Part shown: one piece after another, positions 41,121 to 62,086 of the stretch
Layout: the number at the start of each line of letters is the position of its first letter
How positions within the stretch are numbered: the first letter of the stretch is position 1
Origin: Woodsholea maritima DSM 17123
GTDB lineage: Bacteria; Pseudomonadota; Alphaproteobacteria; Caulobacterales; Maricaulaceae
Length of the DNA stretch: 64,000 bases
NCBI RefSeq assembly: GCF_000382325.1
Contig: NZ_KB908056.1
Coordinates: 273,722 to 337,721 of the forward strand
Direction of reading: 5' to 3'
Notes under the pieces: generated by a model
Told to the model about the DNA's origin: nothing
What the model saw: only the letters and a program-made list of their open reading frames with translations
The model's database searches: none
Program-made: the position numbers and the translations under genes

Positions 41121-43316
41121 TTAGAATGCCTTACGCACAGACACCCGCACGGACCGGCCCTGCGCTGGCAAATGATCCTTCAAATAAGAGGTATGAAAGC
41201 GCACCTCTTCATCGGTGATATTGCGCACCCCCAGGGTCAATGCCAGCGAGTCTAGGCTTTCGGGGCGCCATTCGACATCCCCATTGAGAAGCACATAGCC
41301 ATCGGTGGGCAGCTCATTCGTCGCGGTTTCATCCTGCTCGGCCACAAATTGCGCATCTGCACGCCAAGACAAGCTCTCATTAACCAGCTCCAAGCCGGTT
41401 TTCAGGCTCAAAGGTGAGATGCGCGGCAGATTTCCGCCCTGATCCAACTCGCCGCGCACATAGTCGAGCCCGGCATGGGCCAAGATGTCATAGCCAAAGG
41501 CTTGACCCAGCTGGGTATTGGCCGCCAGCTCAAAGCCATAGAGGCGCGCATCTGCTTGGGTGTACTGATATACATCCAAGCCATCGCGGGTCTCACCGCT
41601 CGCCATTAAGGTGATGAAGCCATCATAATCGGCATAGAATACATTGGCTTCGGCATGAAGATTATCATGATCGTAGCGGAGCGTGCCTTCCAGAGACCAG
41701 GCTTTTTCCGTGTCGAGATTGAGATCACCGATTTCAAAGGCGCGCGTCGCCAAGTGAGCCCCTTCTGCGAACACTTCAACGTCTGTGGGCGCACGCTCCG
41801 AACGTGACACGGTCACACTGGTGAAGAGGTCAGGGTGCGGGCGCGCGAACAAAGATCCCGAAGCCGAAAAGGCGGTATAGGTGTCTTCTTTACGCAGACC
41901 ATTCAAGCGGCGACGTTCCAACCGGGCCCCAGCTTCAAAGCCCCAAGCCTCACGGTCAAACCGCTCCAGCGCGAACAGGCCCCAATCCTGGGTCGTTACC
42001 GGCTCGATATAGGCTTCCTCGCCTTCGGCCTTGAAATCCTTAGTCAGAGCCTGAAGCCCCCAGGCCCCTTGCCAATTGCCGCCATGATCATGGCTAACTT
42101 CAACGCGGCCCTCAAAGCCTTCATTATAGAAGGTGGTGGCTATCTCATCACCTTCGCGTTCTTTGTGCTCATAATCAGAATAGGCGCCTGACCAACGCAC
42201 CCGGTTGATAAACCCATCAAGACGCACTTCACCACGCACATCAATGCGGGTCTGATCCATCACCAGACGCGGATCCGCGTGTTCATGCTCATGTTCATGA
42301 TCATCATCGTGATCGTCGTCGTGATCGTGATCGTGGTCGTGATCGTGATTCTCATCTTCATGAGCGTGCTCATGTCCAGGAAGACCATATTCCGCATCCG
42401 TGACTTTCACAGCCAAACCGACAAAGCCCCAGTTTTGAATATAGGAGACGCCACCCGAATAGGTTTTAAACAGGAAGTCTGAATTCTCGACATGATCGCG
42501 AGCGAATTCCTCTTCATGGTCATGGTCATGATCGTGGTCATGATCGTGGTCATCATCGTGGTCGTGATCGTGATCGTGATCATGATCATGATCATCATGC
42601 TCGCCCTCTTCCAGAGCGCGTTGACGCGCTGAATCGGCAAAGCCGGGTATGTCATAGACACCCGCTTCGCGGCGCTGACCCTCCAGCGTAAAGGCGAAAT
42701 CGCCCGCCCCTACAATCACCCGGCCCGCCAGCTGGTTGCCGTCATCCACGCTGGTATAGCCGCCATAAACCTCACCCGAGAACGGAGCCTCTGGGCGCTC
42801 TTCAACGATGCGGCCATCCATAATATTGACCACGCCGCCAATAGCGCCGCCGCCATAGGCAATGGCCGAGGCCCCACGCAGCACCTCAATTTGCGACGCA
42901 CTGAGTGTTTCCGCCGCGATCGCATGATCCGGGCTTGCCGCGGAGGCATCAAGCGAGCCCACCCCATTAACCAGAACCCGAACCCGATCTGCGCCCAGGC
43001 CCCGAATGACGGGTCGCCCGGCCGCCGGACCAAAAAAGGTATTGGTCACGCCAGGAATATTGGCTAAAGCCTCACCCAGATTGCCCGCCCCCAGGCGCTG
43101 AATCTCTTCATCATTTAAAATACTCGCCGCGCCGACCACATCATGGTCATGCACATTCAAAGGCGAGGATTTGACGATGATCACATCAATGTCGTGATCA
43201 TGGGCCTCTTGAGCCTCTTGGACCTGTTGAGCATGGGCAGAGGTCGCCGCACTCAGCGCCAGGGCGCTGGCCGCAAGGCAAAGGAGTGACCGTCTTTTAT
43301 CGTTAAACCGTAGCAT
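41121..43316 (-). CDS. znuD: TonB-dependent receptor of the zinc receptor ZnuD type
   Basis: The 731-residue product is an outer-membrane receptor that probably takes up zinc. It has a signal peptide, a plug domain (PVIRGLGADRVRVLVNG, VLRGASAIAYGG) and a barrel ending RVSVRKAF. Two long His/Asp runs lie in predicted outside loops (about residues 239-270 and 314-346), with shorter HDHD patches near the N-terminus. Such loops bind Zn. It lies divergent from a Zur-type regulator, and an AT-rich imperfect inverted repeat sits between them, so zinc limitation should induce it. No iron-siderophore genes are adjacent. Confidence 0.88.
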   Translation of the reverse strand: MLRFNDKRRSLLCLAASALALSAATSAHAQQVQEAQEAHDHDIDVIIVKSSPLNVHDHDVVGAASILNDEEIQRLGAGNLGEALANIPGVTNTFFGPAAGRPVIRGLGADRVRVLVNGVGSLDASAASPDHAIAAETLSASQIEVLRGASAIAYGGGAIGGVVNIMDGRIVEERPEAPFSGEVYGGYTSVDDGNQLAGRVIVGAGDFAFTLEGQRREAGVYDIPGFADSARQRALEEGEHDDHDHDHDHDHDHDDDHDHDHDHDHDHEEEFARDHVENSDFLFKTYSGGVSYIQNWGFVGLAVKVTDAEYGLPGHEHAHEDENHDHDHDHDHDDDHDDDHEHEHEHADPRLVMDQTRIDVRGEVRLDGFINRVRWSGAYSDYEHKEREGDEIATTFYNEGFEGRVEVSHDHGGNWQGAWGLQALTKDFKAEGEEAYIEPVTTQDWGLFALERFDREAWGFEAGARLERRRLNGLRKEDTYTAFSASGSLFARPHPDLFTSVTVSRSERAPTDVEVFAEGAHLATRAFEIGDLNLDTEKAWSLEGTLRYDHDNLHAEANVFYADYDGFITLMASGETRDGLDVYQYTQADARLYGFELAANTQLGQAFGYDILAHAGLDYVRGELDQGGNLPRISPLSLKTGLELVNESLSWRADAQFVAEQDETATNELPTDGYVLLNGDVEWRPESLDSLALTLGVRNITDEEVRFHTSYLKDHLPAQGRSVRVSVRKAF
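42278..42376 (-). repeat. His/Asp-coding repeat block 2
   Basis: A run of near-identical CAT/CAC and GAT/GAC/GAG codons on the minus strand encodes HDHDHDHD-type sequence (about residues 314-346 of the zinc receptor). It is coding repeat, not CRISPR. Confidence 0.9.
42512..42600 (-). repeat. His/Asp-coding repeat block 1
   Basis: A six-base-period run of His and Asp codons on the minus strand encodes about 30 alternating residues (about 239-270 of the zinc receptor). The period makes it prone to in-frame length change. Confidence 0.9.
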
Positions 43317-56290: not shown

Positions 56291-56779
56291 TTAGGCGTCC
56301 TCCTCAATCGCGCTGGACCAAGGCGCGAGACGCGCCGCCGCCAAAGCTTCAAAGGCGCGCGCACGGTGCTTGATATCTTCAGAGGGCTCGCGGTTTTCCA
56401 CCCGCTCCTCCATCCAACGACACCCGGCTTCCAGCTCACTTAAAGCCCCATCAATATCATCGCGCTGGCGGCGCAAATCCTTGATCCGGGCACGAAAGCG
56501 CACAATCGCCGCCTCCAAATGGGTCTTACCGCCCTGATCCAGCGCTTCGAGATCGAGCATCTCTTTGATGTCAGACAGGGCAAAACCTACGCGCTTGCCG
56601 CGCAGGATCAACACCAGGCGCGCGCGATCAGCGGCGGAGTAAATCCGGTTTGCGCCCTTGCGCTTGGGACTCAACAAACCCTTCTGCTCGTAATAGCGCA
56701 AGGTCCGCGCCGTCACATCAAAGGTTTCGGCCAGTTCGCGGATCGTAAACTCTGCGTGGGGCGGGACAATCTCTACCAT
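56291..56779 (-). CDS. MerR-family regulator of fatty-acid/acyl-CoA genes
   Basis: The 162-residue product has an N-terminal MerR helix-turn-helix (FTIRELAETFDVTARTLRYY) and a wing (LLSPKRKGANRIYSAADRARLVLILRGKRVGF). A coiled-coil dimer helix (about 80-125) follows with a single Cys (AGCRWMEE); it lacks a heavy-metal binding set. It resembles the LiuR-like MerR proteins that control acyl-CoA breakdown. An earlier ATG at 56791 is possible. A matching dyad lies upstream of its own gene and upstream of the adjacent acyl-CoA dehydrogenase. Confidence 0.88.
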   Translation of the reverse strand: MVEIVPPHAEFTIRELAETFDVTARTLRYYEQKGLLSPKRKGANRIYSAADRARLVLILRGKRVGFALSDIKEMLDLEALDQGGKTHLEAAIVRFRARIKDLRRQRDDIDGALSELEAGCRWMEERVENREPSEDIKHRARAFEALAAARLAPWSSAIEEDA

Positions 56780-56800
56780 AAGCGTCAGCATGCGACGAAG

Positions 56801-56816
56801 TTGACGCGAACGTCAA
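56801..56816. promoter_or_regulatory. Putative MerR-type operator upstream of merR
   Basis: TTGACGCGAACGTCAA is a near-perfect inverted repeat 22 bases before the merR start and is followed by another half site (cgtcaa). The same pattern occurs upstream of the acyl-CoA dehydrogenase gene, which fits autoregulation. Confidence 0.65.
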
Positions 56817-56945
56817 CGTCAATTTTATCCTCAAGGTGAATTTTATTTTCCGCCTACAGTCCCAGTCGCGGATCGCTTGCGCCCATGGCGCGTTATCCTT
56901 AATCAGGCTAAGATGAATTGATCATGTCGTGAAGGGGATCAGAGA

Positions 56946-58517
56946 ATGAACATCGCGCGTTACGGGATTATTTCTGGCCCCATCTTGTCTGGCCCCATCT
57001 TGTCTGGCCCCATCTTGTCTGGCCTTGCCGCTCTGGCCCTGACGACCAGCCTCAGCACACCAGTCTTCGCCGATCCCGCCTTTGGCCCTCACATTGATCT
57101 AGCAACCTATATAGATCAGCGCGGCGGCTTTGAGGGCCCGGCCTGGACCTTGAGCTTTGAGCACAGCGCGCGCCATATCTCCACCGGCGCGGTTGAAGGC
57201 CAACAGCCTCAAACCGAAAGCCCCTATCGGGTTCGCTTCGGCCAAGATTATGCGCTTGATTTCAATCAAGAGCGTGGACCCTGCCTCATCGACTTCAAGA
57301 CCGAGCGCACCCTATGTGACAGCGCGCAAGCCACCGCGCTGACCAACACCTCTTTCTTTGGCCCGGTCCGGCGCAATATTGATACCTATGTGGGCCTTTC
57401 TCAAAGCGGCCAGCGCGAGATCATCCAGTTCGGCGCGAACCAGACCTTTGAGCGTTTCTGGCTGGAAGCGGCCATGGGCGTGCGTGCGACCCAAGTCGAG
57501 CTGAGCGTCACCCTAGAGGGCGATCTTCACCATTTGAGCCGCGGTGAAGAGCGTGTGGCCACGTTGGATTTCACCGCCAGCGACAATCAGGCCGCGCTTG
57601 ATGGCCATGTGCTGACCAGTTTTACCCGCTGGGCAAGCCATAATCTGACCCTGCACCCGGACATTCTGGCCTATATCACCGAGGTCGGACACATCCCCAG
57701 CGCCATGACGTTCAAAGTCGTCAGCCCCGAAAGCCCTCAAGGGCGCATGGAGCATTGGCAGCTGACCAGCGCCACACCCAACCCGGACCTGCCGGAGCTT
57801 TTGAACGATAAAACCAGCTTCATCTTCCCGATTGAGGGCGAAGTGGGCGATGTAATTGAACATGCCGCGGCAGGGCTTTTCTCCTATCGCCCAACGCAGG
57901 AGAGCTTTCTCAGCGAATTTCAAGACGCGTTGGGCGAGGAGGATCCCGCCAAGGCACTTTTAATCGCCCATCAAGAAGCCTTTCACTTTGGCCCCTGCCC
58001 GCGTGAAACCATTGGTTCTTCGCGCCTGGTATGCGCCAGCCTTCAAGGTTTGACGAATGCGGGTGTCGGCAATGCCCGCTTTGAAGCGCTTAATGATGTT
58101 TTGATGCGCCTGGGCCAGGTGAATTATGTCGATCTGGAAGCCGCGCTGAGCCCCTATCTAAACGCCGATGGCCATGCCGGGGCGGGGGCCAATCTGATCT
58201 ATGGCCTTGAGCTGAGCCGTTTGGCGCAAAGCGACACGACTTTGATCGAGGATAGTGCCCTTTCCCCGCAAAGCGCTTTAAATGCTGCCCTCCTCAAAGA
58301 TCCCATGGCCGGGGATACGTATTGGTATCTCGCTCAACATGCGATTGCCAGCGGGAACTATGATCAAGGCTGGGCCTATTTAGATCTGGCGCGCGCCGGG
58401 GCGCAGATCGAAAAGACCCCCGCTTTAGACCAGGCCGAAGCCATCGAATCACGGCTCAAAGCCCTGGCGCCGGGATTCTTCCTGCCCAGTGAAGAAAATC
58501 TTCAGATTTCTGAATAA
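56946..58517 (+). CDS. Secreted protein with a 15-bp tandem repeat inside its signal peptide
   Basis: The 523-residue product has a signal peptide in which the pentapeptide SGPIL is repeated three times (residues about 10-25), then GLAALALTTSLSTPVFAD. The mature protein has strand-rich N-terminal parts, and the last third has helical repeat-like segments (YWYLAQHAIASGNYDQGWAYL, about 465-485). Four cysteines occur in two pairs (CLIDF/TLCD and GPCPR/LVCAS). I recognise no family. The ATG at 56946 follows agaga and fits. Confidence 0.72.
   Translation: MNIARYGIISGPILSGPILSGPILSGLAALALTTSLSTPVFADPAFGPHIDLATYIDQRGGFEGPAWTLSFEHSARHISTGAVEGQQPQTESPYRVRFGQDYALDFNQERGPCLIDFKTERTLCDSAQATALTNTSFFGPVRRNIDTYVGLSQSGQREIIQFGANQTFERFWLEAAMGVRATQVELSVTLEGDLHHLSRGEERVATLDFTASDNQAALDGHVLTSFTRWASHNLTLHPDILAYITEVGHIPSAMTFKVVSPESPQGRMEHWQLTSATPNPDLPELLNDKTSFIFPIEGEVGDVIEHAAAGLFSYRPTQESFLSEFQDALGEEDPAKALLIAHQEAFHFGPCPRETIGSSRLVCASLQGLTNAGVGNARFEALNDVLMRLGQVNYVDLEAALSPYLNADGHAGAGANLIYGLELSRLAQSDTTLIEDSALSPQSALNAALLKDPMAGDTYWYLAQHAIASGNYDQGWAYLDLARAGAQIEKTPALDQAEAIESRLKALAPGFFLPSEENLQISE
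56973..57024 (+). repeat. 15-bp tandem repeat, 3.5 copies, in frame
   Basis: The unit tctggccccatcttg repeats three times with a partial fourth copy, with no substitutions. Being 15 bases, each unit adds five residues and keeps the frame, so slippage would change signal peptide length, not break the gene. Confidence 0.92.
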
Positions 58518-58556: not shown

Positions 58557-58711
58557 CGCACCAACGGCTCTTGATTTTATGGGAGTTTGGTGCGGTGCGC
58601 GCCCCAACAGCGATTCGGTGTGGATATACCACATCTTGAGGGGGCAGACATGGTTTACACAATATTAACCGCTCGATACCGTCTACCCATTGAGTGATGG
58701 AGTTGAGTCGT

Positions 58712-61700
58712 ATGGCGTCGGGAACGCCCTGGAGCATTAAAGGCATTGACCCTCGTGCCCGTGCAATCGCGAAAAGCGCTGCGCGCAAGGAAGGCATGAC
58801 TTTGGGCGAATGGCTAAACAGCGTGATCCTTGAGGATGGCGAACCTGCGGCTGAGCGCTCCAAGCCCTGGGACAAGCTGGCGGGTTTTCCCGGCTTTGCC
58901 CGTCCTGGCGGCGGTGGCGGGGATGATGATGGCCCCGGCGACGAAGACAGTGAGCTGAACAATATCGTCCAACGCTTGTCCGAGCGTTTGGAAGCGGCCG
59001 AGCAACGCTCTGCCCTCGCGCTGACCGGTGTTGACCATTCCGTGCTTAATCTCGCGCGCCGTTTGGAACGGATTGAGGAAGAGCGCGATCAGCATGATAG
59101 CGATCTTGATGAAACCCTGGTGCGCACCCGCGCGGCCCAGGAAGAATTGCTCGACCGGATCCGCAAGCTGGAACGTCAAGACCCTGCGCAAATCACGCCG
59201 GAGAGCGTCAAAGCCATAGAAAAGGCGGTGGGTAAAATCGCTCAGCGCCTGTTTGAGACGGAAAACACCGTACGCTCTGAGCTGCAACACGCTGAAAGCC
59301 GCGATGACAAAGCTCAATCGGATCTCGAAAAAACCACCAAAGCCCTTTCGACCCGCCTGGAAGACATCGAAAAGCGGGCAAAGGGTGAATATAACGAGCT
59401 GAAAGACCTGTTAGAGAGCCGCGAGCGGCGCGCCACGGAAGGTCTGCAAGGGCTCTATGATGCCACGCGCGCCATGCAATTGCGCCTGTCACAAGCCGAA
59501 GAGCATACCGATCACGCGGCCAAAGCGCTCTCCACCCATCAAGAGATGTTTGAACAGCGCCTGCGTGAGATTGAAAGCCGCAGTGCGGGATCTGTCTCCA
59601 CCCAGTCCTTCCAGCGCCGCTTTGAGCATCTTTCTGATGAGCTCGCTCAAGTCATCGCGCGCACCCGCAGTGAGCTGGCCAATGAGATCAGCCGCGCCAG
59701 CCAGGCCCCGCGAGTGGATCAAATCGAAGCCGCGTTAAAAGCCGCTGAGAGCCGGATCGAAGCTGCCGAAGCGCGCCATTCTCAGGCGCTGGCTAAAATC
59801 GGCACGGAAATCGGACGCATGGCGCGCGCCATGGATCGCCGTTTGAAAGAGACCGAGCGCCGGGTTCAAGTTCAGGCACAAGCGCCCGCCCCGCGTCCTG
59901 TTCAACCCAGCGCCCATATCGAAGCGCGCCTGGATGAAGTGCGCCGCGAAAGCACCGATGCCGTAAAGCGGATCGGCGAAGAAGTCTCCAAGCTGGGCAA
60001 TAACTTAGCTGAACGCGTTAGCGAGGCCGAAGCCCGCTCGGCCGCCGCCGTCGAAGCGGCCGGTGAGCGTATGGCGCAGATGCTTGAGCGTTTGGAAAGC
60101 CAACGCGTTGCAAGCCCGGAAGCAGATTTGGAAGCGCGCATTTCCGCCTCAGAAGAGCGCACCGCGCGCCGCATAGAGGAAGCCATGCAAGGGGTTCATC
60201 AACGGCTCGACATCGCGCGCGCCGAAACGCACGAGGCCTTATCCCCGGTGCAACGCGCCATGACCGCGCTCGCCGAACGGCTCGAAGCGATTGAACAACG
60301 CCATCCCGGTGCCCATGCCGCGCGCACCCAACACGCCCCCGCCCAAGAGGATGCTGGGGAATGGATCGAAGCCCAACCCCAACAGCCCTATACGCCGCAA
60401 GCGCCCAAGGCCGAGCCCACGGGGGGGGCCAATCGCGATTTTGATGAGCCGCTGCCCTTACCGCCCGGCTATAATCTGGGGGCCCAGCCGCACAGCGATC
60501 CGGCCTTGGAAGACGATGGCTTCATCCTGAACGCCCTTGATATGCCAAGCCAGCAGCCCCAGGGCGCGCGCCAGCCTCAAGCGCAGGCGCAGACAGCCCA
60601 GCCTCACATGGCTCAAACTCAGGCAGCACAAACTCAGGCGGCTCCGGCTCAACCCCAAAACGCGCCGCAGCCCCAGGCGCAACCGGCCAAACCCGCCCCC
60701 TTGGGGGCCACGGCCAACGCTGAATTCCTGGCGGCCGCACGCAAAAGCACCCGCACGGGGCAGAACAGCTATAATCAAGCCATGGGGGCTGCGCCGATGG
60801 CGAGCGCGCCGGTCCAGGGCCTGAGCCTTCCCAAAGCCCAGGGCGGACGCTTACTTCTGATCGGACTTCTCGTCGTGGGGTTCTTGACGATTGGCTCGGC
60901 CTTTGCGCTGTTGATGCTGGATCGTACGGGGTCTGAACCCCGTCAGGCCCAAGCCAATACCGATGCGGTTTCGCAATTATTCGCGGCTACGCCCTCTTCT
61001 GCGCAAGAGCCACCGGTCGCTGAGCCTCAACAGCCCCCGCAGACGGAGGGCGAAGGCGAAGCGCGCCCTTTTGATCCAGACCAAGGCAGCGCACGCCCGG
61101 ACTCCCTTTCCAGCGCCGCAGATGAGACACCCCTTGAGGCTCCGCGTGAGGCCCAATCTGCGCCTGCACCGCGCCTAGAAACACCCGCCCAAAATGTGGA
61201 GCCGCAACCCATTGGCGCCGCGCAAGAGCCAGGCGCACAAGACCTAGGCGCGCCCAGCCCGGCGGTTGAGCGCGCTGCCCCGCCGCTGACTTTAGAAGCC
61301 GCCGCCGCTCAAGGTCATCCCATTGCACGCTATCAATTGGGCCTGCGCCTCTATCGCGAAGGTGAGTTCGCGGATGCCGCCGCGCTGTTGCGCCGCGCCG
61401 CGGAACAAGGCGTGCCTGATGCCCAATATCGCTATGCCAAAATGTTGGAACGCGGCGAAGGCATGGAGCAAGATTTCCTGGGCGCTGCGCGTTGGAACCA
61501 GGAAGCGGCCGAAGCCGGTCATGGCCGGGCCATGCATAATATGGGCGTGCTTCTGGTGACCGGTCAGATGGGCGAGCCTGATTATGAACGTGCCAAGCGC
61601 TGGTTTGAGCTGGCCGCCCTGCATGGCGTGGCCGATTCGCAAAACAATCTGGCGCTGTTCTTTGAGCGCGGTATTGGCGGTACAGCGCAAAGCCTGCCCG

Positions 61701-62086
61701 ATGCCTATGCCTGGTATTCGATCTTGGCCCAAAGCGGCGATGAAGCCGCACCCGAACGCGTCGCGGCGCTGCGCCCGCAAATCAGCCCAGAAGCCGCGGC
61801 CCAAGCCGATCAGGTCGCACGCCAATTTACCCCCCGCCCTCTCGATCCAATTGTTCAAGGCCAATATGGCCCACAAGCCTGGGACCAGGGAGAAAATTCA
61901 GTTTCTGTTCAACGTGCACAAACTTTATTAGCACGCTTGGGCTATGATGTGGGTCCAACCGATGGTGATGTCGGACCCAAAACGCGGGAGGCCATTATCG
62001 CTTATCAAAGCGAGCATAATCTTGATCAAACCGGAACGATTGACGCAGCGCTGATTGCACGCCTAGAGCGCACAGACGGGCGTTAA
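58712..62086 (+). CDS. podJ: PodJ-like polar localisation factor with Sel1 repeats and peptidoglycan-binding domain
   Basis: The 1124-residue product has the PodJ-type N-terminus (SGTPWSIKGIDPRARAIA, MTLGEWLN). A long cytosolic coiled coil (about 90-560), a proline/alanine/glutamine-rich linker, one membrane helix (LLLIGLLVVGFLTIGSAFALL, about 713-733), a periplasmic Sel1 repeat array (about 864-1012) and a peptidoglycan-binding domain (about 1062-1124) follow. Caulobacter PodJ has the same order and recruits polar proteins such as PleC. The start at 58712 has ggag upstream; a GTG 18 bases earlier is less likely. A CtrA box lies upstream. Confidence 0.88.
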   Translation: MASGTPWSIKGIDPRARAIAKSAARKEGMTLGEWLNSVILEDGEPAAERSKPWDKLAGFPGFARPGGGGGDDDGPGDEDSELNNIVQRLSERLEAAEQRSALALTGVDHSVLNLARRLERIEEERDQHDSDLDETLVRTRAAQEELLDRIRKLERQDPAQITPESVKAIEKAVGKIAQRLFETENTVRSELQHAESRDDKAQSDLEKTTKALSTRLEDIEKRAKGEYNELKDLLESRERRATEGLQGLYDATRAMQLRLSQAEEHTDHAAKALSTHQEMFEQRLREIESRSAGSVSTQSFQRRFEHLSDELAQVIARTRSELANEISRASQAPRVDQIEAALKAAESRIEAAEARHSQALAKIGTEIGRMARAMDRRLKETERRVQVQAQAPAPRPVQPSAHIEARLDEVRRESTDAVKRIGEEVSKLGNNLAERVSEAEARSAAAVEAAGERMAQMLERLESQRVASPEADLEARISASEERTARRIEEAMQGVHQRLDIARAETHEALSPVQRAMTALAERLEAIEQRHPGAHAARTQHAPAQEDAGEWIEAQPQQPYTPQAPKAEPTGGANRDFDEPLPLPPGYNLGAQPHSDPALEDDGFILNALDMPSQQPQGARQPQAQAQTAQPHMAQTQAAQTQAAPAQPQNAPQPQAQPAKPAPLGATANAEFLAAARKSTRTGQNSYNQAMGAAPMASAPVQGLSLPKAQGGRLLLIGLLVVGFLTIGSAFALLMLDRTGSEPRQAQANTDAVSQLFAATPSSAQEPPVAEPQQPPQTEGEGEARPFDPDQGSARPDSLSSAADETPLEAPREAQSAPAPRLETPAQNVEPQPIGAAQEPGAQDLGAPSPAVERAAPPLTLEAAAAQGHPIARYQLGLRLYREGEFADAAALLRRAAEQGVPDAQYRYAKMLERGEGMEQDFLGAARWNQEAAEAGHGRAMHNMGVLLVTGQMGEPDYERAKRWFELAALHGVADSQNNLALFFERGIGGTAQSLPDAYAWYSILAQSGDEAAPERVAALRPQISPEAAAQADQVARQFTPRPLDPIVQGQYGPQAWDQGENSVSVQRAQTLLARLGYDVGPTDGDVGPKTREAIIAYQSEHNLDQTGTIDAALIARLERTDGR

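Follow-up and report, generated by a model that had tools for sequence, protein, structure and literature searches.

A Young-Looking, In-Frame Tandem Array in the Signal-Peptide Coding Sequence of a Putative Exported Protein of Woodsholea maritima

Introduction

Does a perfect tandem repeat within the sequence that codes for a signal peptide adjust the export of the encoded protein, or is it a recent insertion that the signal peptide tolerates? This question is raised by a gene at positions 56946–58517 (plus strand) of a 64,000-nucleotide stretch of Woodsholea maritima DSM 17123 DNA (the window), which encodes a putative exported protein of 523 amino acids. If the number of repeat units varied and changed export, secretion would be tuned by mutation in a graded and reversible manner; a sequence-only reading of the locus had proposed that unit changes tune export.

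Tandem Array and Signal Peptide

The gene starts with an ATG at 56946. AAGGGG ends 8 bases ahead of this ATG, which is the sole ATG, GTG or TTG codon from the preceding in-frame stop to the array. The array itself (56973–57024, plus strand) consists of 52 letters, namely three exact copies of the 15-bp unit TCTGGCCCCATCTTG followed by TCTGGCC as a partial fourth unit (7 of 15 bases), which gives 3.47 copies by length, all perfect. Tandem Repeats Finder reported a period of 15, 3.5 copies and 100% matches; the program and the letters thus both confirm the three perfect SGPIL-coding units described earlier. The array is read in the frame of the ORF at 56946–58517 and codes for residues 10–26, SGPILSGPILSGPILSG, with the product (SGPIL)3-SG. 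TTG codons internal to the array were considered as alternative starts and rejected, being preceded by neither a ribosome site nor a positive n-region.

The N-terminus of the product is MNIARYGIISGPILSGPILSGPILSGLAALALTTSLSTPVFA, followed by DPA. The signal-peptide coding part spans 56946–57071 (plus strand, 42 residues), with the cut predicted before DP by a home-made rule and not by a trained predictor; an earlier version of this rule cut after residue 31 and the later one after residue 42. By the same rule, the hallmarks of a Sec signal peptide are present, including a positive n-region (MNIAR), a core (SGLAALALTTSL) and VFA before DP with small residues at −3 and −1. Residues 1–37 have a pLDDT below 50 in the AlphaFold2 model. 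Within the signal peptide, (SGPIL)3-SG sits after the n-region Arg and ahead of the hydrophobic core. The half unit noted previously amounts to 7 of 15 bases, and the array, earlier placed on the h-region side, is flanked by the n-region and the hydrophobic core.

Perfect Arrays in the Genome

The array far exceeds what chance would produce: all 100 first-order Markov simulations of the window lacked perfect arrays with a length of 24 bases or more and two or more copies. The same cut applied to a real genome sample of 464 kb (the window together with 20 stretches of 20 kb each, roughly 15% of the 3.1-Mb genome) yielded five perfect arrays, among which only the one at 56973–57024 has three or more copies. 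With up to one mismatch, the TCTGGCCCCATCTTG unit occurs three times in the whole 3.1-Mb genome, always inside the array. Three of the perfect arrays belong to the sampled stretches and lie at codon 97 or later in the ORFs longer than 90 amino acids that they touch, hence outside signal peptides. The second perfect array of the window (42523–42553) is inside a receptor-like ORF on the minus strand (41121–43316). The location of the sole array of at least three copies in a signal peptide could exceed luck, which a single case within 464 kb cannot establish.

Other repeats were seen as well. The receptor-like ORF, of 731 amino acids, carries 6- and 12-bp repeats at 42280–42595 that code for His/Asp-rich stretches, and we take its product to be TonB-dependent receptor-like and similar to ZnuD. 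A perfect 62-bp duplication (2.13 copies) was found in a stretch of the same genome (L107, 14130–14261), mostly outside the sole ORF longer than 90 amino acids that it touches.

The genome is a draft in 20 contigs, and the copy number of the array might on that account be an assembly error. The array is, however, interior to a 1.16-Mb contig, and its 52 bases are shorter than ordinary sequencing reads. A miscount by one unit is possible, but a complete absence of the repeat is unlikely, and we consider an assembly error highly improbable as an explanation of the copy number.

Distribution among Relatives and Origin of the Array

Matches to the window protein (E ≤ 0.001) were found in 72 of 137 family genomes, representing 12 of 19 genera. 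The match in genome G095 (locus L067) was rejected as an ortholog and is a look-alike, SGPVLSGPV, within a repeat-rich protein body, reducing the count to 71 genomes and 11 genera. That repeat-rich protein, from another genus (L067, 508–630), resembles the SGPIL array in its SGPVLSGPV stretch. Signal peptides were compared over 38 related loci from Maricaulis, Oceanicaulis, Glycocaulis, Marinicauda, Hyphobacterium, Alkalicaulis, one "Maricaulaceae bacterium" and some unclassified assemblies; these loci overlap the genomes of the 137-genome search and are not independent samples. They supersede a first, cruder table of 60 rows, which included the G095 look-alike and some wrong starts and gave a median of 24 residues. 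No close relatives of the gene were detected in genome_contigs or viral_contigs, the gene was not found in plasmids, and two exact repeat units gave no match in the part of viral_contigs covered.

Over its first 180 bases, the gene is free of any comparable DNA repeat in all 38 related loci. A 22-base piece of the array, searched with up to two mismatches, was present in the window's own genome and in none of the other family genomes, 136 being searched in all; 95 of the 136 have a completeness of 90% or more and a contamination of 5% or less, and the genus is represented by the window's genome alone. A family-wide repeat was rejected on these two counts (0 of 38 loci, 1 of 136 genomes). When 22 members are aligned, most rows have gaps opposite the 17 array residues, and the two fullest other rows occupy 9 and 10 of these 17 columns, with different letters. 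The nearest orthologs show just 33–38% identity in long matches and up to 46% in short segments, and so would hardly reveal the state before the expansion.

The same five codons are used in all three units, an agreement that three independent SGPIL units would reach with a chance of about 1e-5, given the codon usage of 36 long mechanical ORFs of the window. A convergent repeat at the protein level is unlikely because the units share identical codons, and for the same reason the units are attributed to duplication of DNA. No substitution separates the units within the 52 bases. The claim of recent expansion holds up in so far as a DNA-level duplication looks recent, given 52 bases without substitution and no counterpart found in relatives, in a sample of one strain only.

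According to the mechanism that we favor, slippage in replication, or unequal recombination, between short TCTGGCC copies multiplied the 15-bp unit; the TCTGGCC that bounds each unit would serve as a foothold for slippage or unequal crossing-over. Each added unit would contribute five codons, whose peptide is uncharged and mildly hydrophobic, contains Gly-Pro and follows the positive n-region, ahead of the intact core and cleavage site. Because the insert keeps the frame, is uncharged and leaves the core and cleavage site intact, the signal peptide should still work, only longer, and the product of 42 residues would still function as a Sec signal peptide. The expansion would then be tolerated and probably near-neutral, and the copy number may drift. 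We consider it probable that slippage expanded the array recently, at a site where the signal peptide tolerates added length, and that the effect is near-neutral.

A different reading takes the long signal peptide to be selected at its fixed length, with the extended N-terminal part slowing or redirecting targeting. Its length of 42 residues, compared with a median of 21 in the 38 related loci, agrees with this reading, but the related signal peptides vary between 14 and 40 residues without repeats (by an automatic rule, some of whose cuts are doubtful, e.g., 40 residues for L069), and the identical codons suggest a young event; selection for a fixed length is very unlikely.

Effect of Unit Number at the Protein and RNA Levels

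A young slippage expansion might nevertheless vary in length, and the consequences of unit number were computed for the protein and for the RNA. The best 10-residue hydropathy is 2.39 for one to six units and 2.46 for none, and the best 19-residue hydropathy is 1.64–1.67 for one to six units and 1.58 for none. At every unit number from one to six, the longest hydrophobic run comprises 11 residues. The sole change is in the uncharged stretch that separates Arg5 from the cleavage site, which lengthens by five residues per unit, from 27 to 52 residues. The earlier statement that unit changes alter the hydrophobic length and not the frame is therefore right about the frame, the unit being 15 bp, and finds no support for the hydrophobic part, the core being constant from one to six units.

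These values bear on the possibility of an in-frame export rheostat, in which a population would contain different unit numbers and each would set its own efficiency of export. The array is perfect, in-frame, slippage-prone and rightly placed for such a role. However, the hydrophobic core is unchanged by the units, each unit contains Gly-Pro, and a repeat at this place is absent from all 38 related loci. Gly-Pro, present in each unit, tends to break helices. For human carnosinase, a leucine repeat in the signal peptide whose length reportedly affects secretion offers a parallel (PMC6948305). On balance, a graded control of export by unit number is unlikely.

At the RNA level, the predicted probability that the start codon is unpaired falls from 0.78 without a unit to 0.23–0.25 with one to six units (0.24 with three). 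The first unit has 9.7 expected pairs with the ribosome-site region, to which units 2 and 3 add 0.05 and 0.24. At 56920–56990, unit 1 is complementary to the ribosome-site region, and the start codon is predicted to be closed by a hairpin. For comparison, synonymous arrays were folded in two sets of 400, and 4–9% of them were equally closed at the ribosome site, the start codon or the region, while the total folding energy of the real sequence was less stable than that of 86–96% of the synonymous versions. According to these predictions, the first unit may lower translation, and further units should not; translation tuning through unit number was rejected, as the effect saturates at one unit.

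The same folding results could be read as the cause of the array, such that unit 1 lowers translation by pairing with the start codon and ribosome-binding site, and selection for this hairpin brought about the array as a by-product. The drop in start-codon accessibility, the 9.7 expected pairs of unit 1 and the small share of synonymous arrays that are as closed (just 4–9%) fit this reading, but saturation at one unit, the weakness of a 4–9% share and a total energy less stable than most synonymous versions speak against it, and we regard it as exceedingly improbable.

The in-silico results taken together make it less likely that unit number has a tuning role. The earlier proposal of export tuning finds no support in the computation, since both the hydrophobic window and the predicted access to the ribosome site are constant beyond one unit. 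We prefer to regard the array as a clean, unusually perfect in-frame insertion tolerated by a signal peptide; it is real, local, young-looking and probably harmless.

Carrier Protein and Its Locus

The family that carries the array, predicted to be LolA-like plus TPR-like and accompanied by a divergent MerR regulator, is probably of more interest than the repeat. AlphaFold2 was run on 39 sequences with a mean pLDDT of 86.7. The mature N-terminal domain of the window protein (residues 49–312, 57090–57881, plus strand) is predicted by structure prediction, Foldseek and structural comparison to be a LolA-like half-barrel, and it reaches a pLDDT of 88.3 when folded alone. In the Foldseek search with this domain, the first 16 rows are LolA chains or a LolA–LolB complex, 11 of them at E ≤ 0.001 (best 8cgm_A, E 9.4e-5), with rmsd of 8–13 and target-normalised TM of only 0.36–0.47. 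A second structural comparison returned LolA, ependymin-related, RseB-type and a few other chains, the best being 4mxt (Z 6.8, rmsd 4.4, 138 aligned). The C-terminal helical part (residues 329–509, 57930–58472, plus strand) is TPR-like in the predicted model and matches TPR folds such as 6v8e_B (Z 9.5, rmsd 3.3, 115 aligned), for which such a Z is not strong, the arrangement being a common one.

Sequence searches gave a different outcome. The window protein has no Pfam family at E ≤ 1 and no NCBIfam match, and none of the 39 members matches LolA models at E ≤ 0.01. Two Pfam TPR models each match one of the 39 members, neither being the window protein. Among PDB sequences there was no hit at E ≤ 1 with profile A3, and the best E was 0.69 in a separate PDB sequence search. 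Because no sequence profile links the protein to LolA, it is described as LolA-like in predicted fold, and not as a LolA; Z values below 8 are modest, and the argument comes from the consistency of the rows.

Upstream of the gene is a divergent MerR-family regulator of 166 amino acids (56291–56791, minus strand; PF13411, E 1e-17), and between the two divergent genes motif comparison located an operator-like palindrome, TTGACGCGAACGTCAA (56801–56816). A MerR relative lies upstream on the opposite strand in 33 of the 38 related loci, 113–314 bases away, and a motif stands between the MerR and carrier genes in the same 33 loci in three forms, TTGACG-N4-CGTCAA (11 loci), AACGTCAACGTCAA (17 loci) and ACGTCAACGT (5 loci). 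The other five loci have neither a MerR relative nor the motif within the DNA examined. With up to two mismatches, AACGTCAACGTCAA has two matches in the window versus 0.30 expected, a comparison that covers the window only. A relative of the neighboring protein was matched anywhere in the locus in 33 of 38 cases; from its sequence, we take this neighbor to be acyl-CoA dehydrogenase-like, and the setting may resemble LiuR-type regulation of acyl-CoA catabolism. Downstream of the gene, 58694–62086 encodes a protein of 1130 amino acids with Sel1 repeats and a peptidoglycan-binding domain, which we assume to be PodJ-like.

Comparison with Known Systems

The N-terminal domain of the carrier protein is alike in prediction to LolA, LolB, RseB and ependymin-like half-barrels, with LolA-type chains ranked first. 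It differs from LolA-type folds in having no sequence match, an extra C-terminal TPR-like part, TM below 0.5 and Z below 8.

Neisseria opa and human CNDP1 are known examples of a repeat within the sequence that encodes a signal peptide. A bacterial in-frame signal-peptide repeat was not recognised among the titles and abstract openings of the papers that literature searches listed, which is no proof of its absence in print; for a mycobacterium ORF with a Sec/SPII signal peptide, repeat variants are described, in which the repeat may lie inside or outside that peptide (PMC10581078). In Neisseria opa, CTCTT repeats lie in the leader-peptide coding region, and slipped-strand mispairing alters their copy number (PMC3960869, PMC3899988, PMC4534519). 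Like the opa repeat, the array is a tandem repeat located where a bacterial exported protein has its signal peptide encoded and, as in an opa-type contingency locus, is a coding repeat near the 5′ end. Unlike in such loci, its unit is a multiple of 3: the 5-bp unit of opa shifts the frame and acts as an on/off switch, whereas the 15 bp of the array (five codons) keep the frame and provide no such switch. One might picture the array as an always in-frame, hypermutable rheostat that sets how fast the MerR-linked LolA-like protein arrives in the periplasm. In a relative of Maricaulis, it would be the graded equivalent of the opa switch, which works by frame shifts; we hold this to be very improbable. 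The in-frame parallel is human CNDP1, where a leucine run in the signal peptide shows known variation with a reported effect on secretion (PMC6948305). Like the repeat of CNDP1-type length polymorphism, the array is an in-frame repeat inside a signal peptide; the repeat of CNDP1 is a leucine run, whereas the array consists of Gly-Pro-containing units beside the core.
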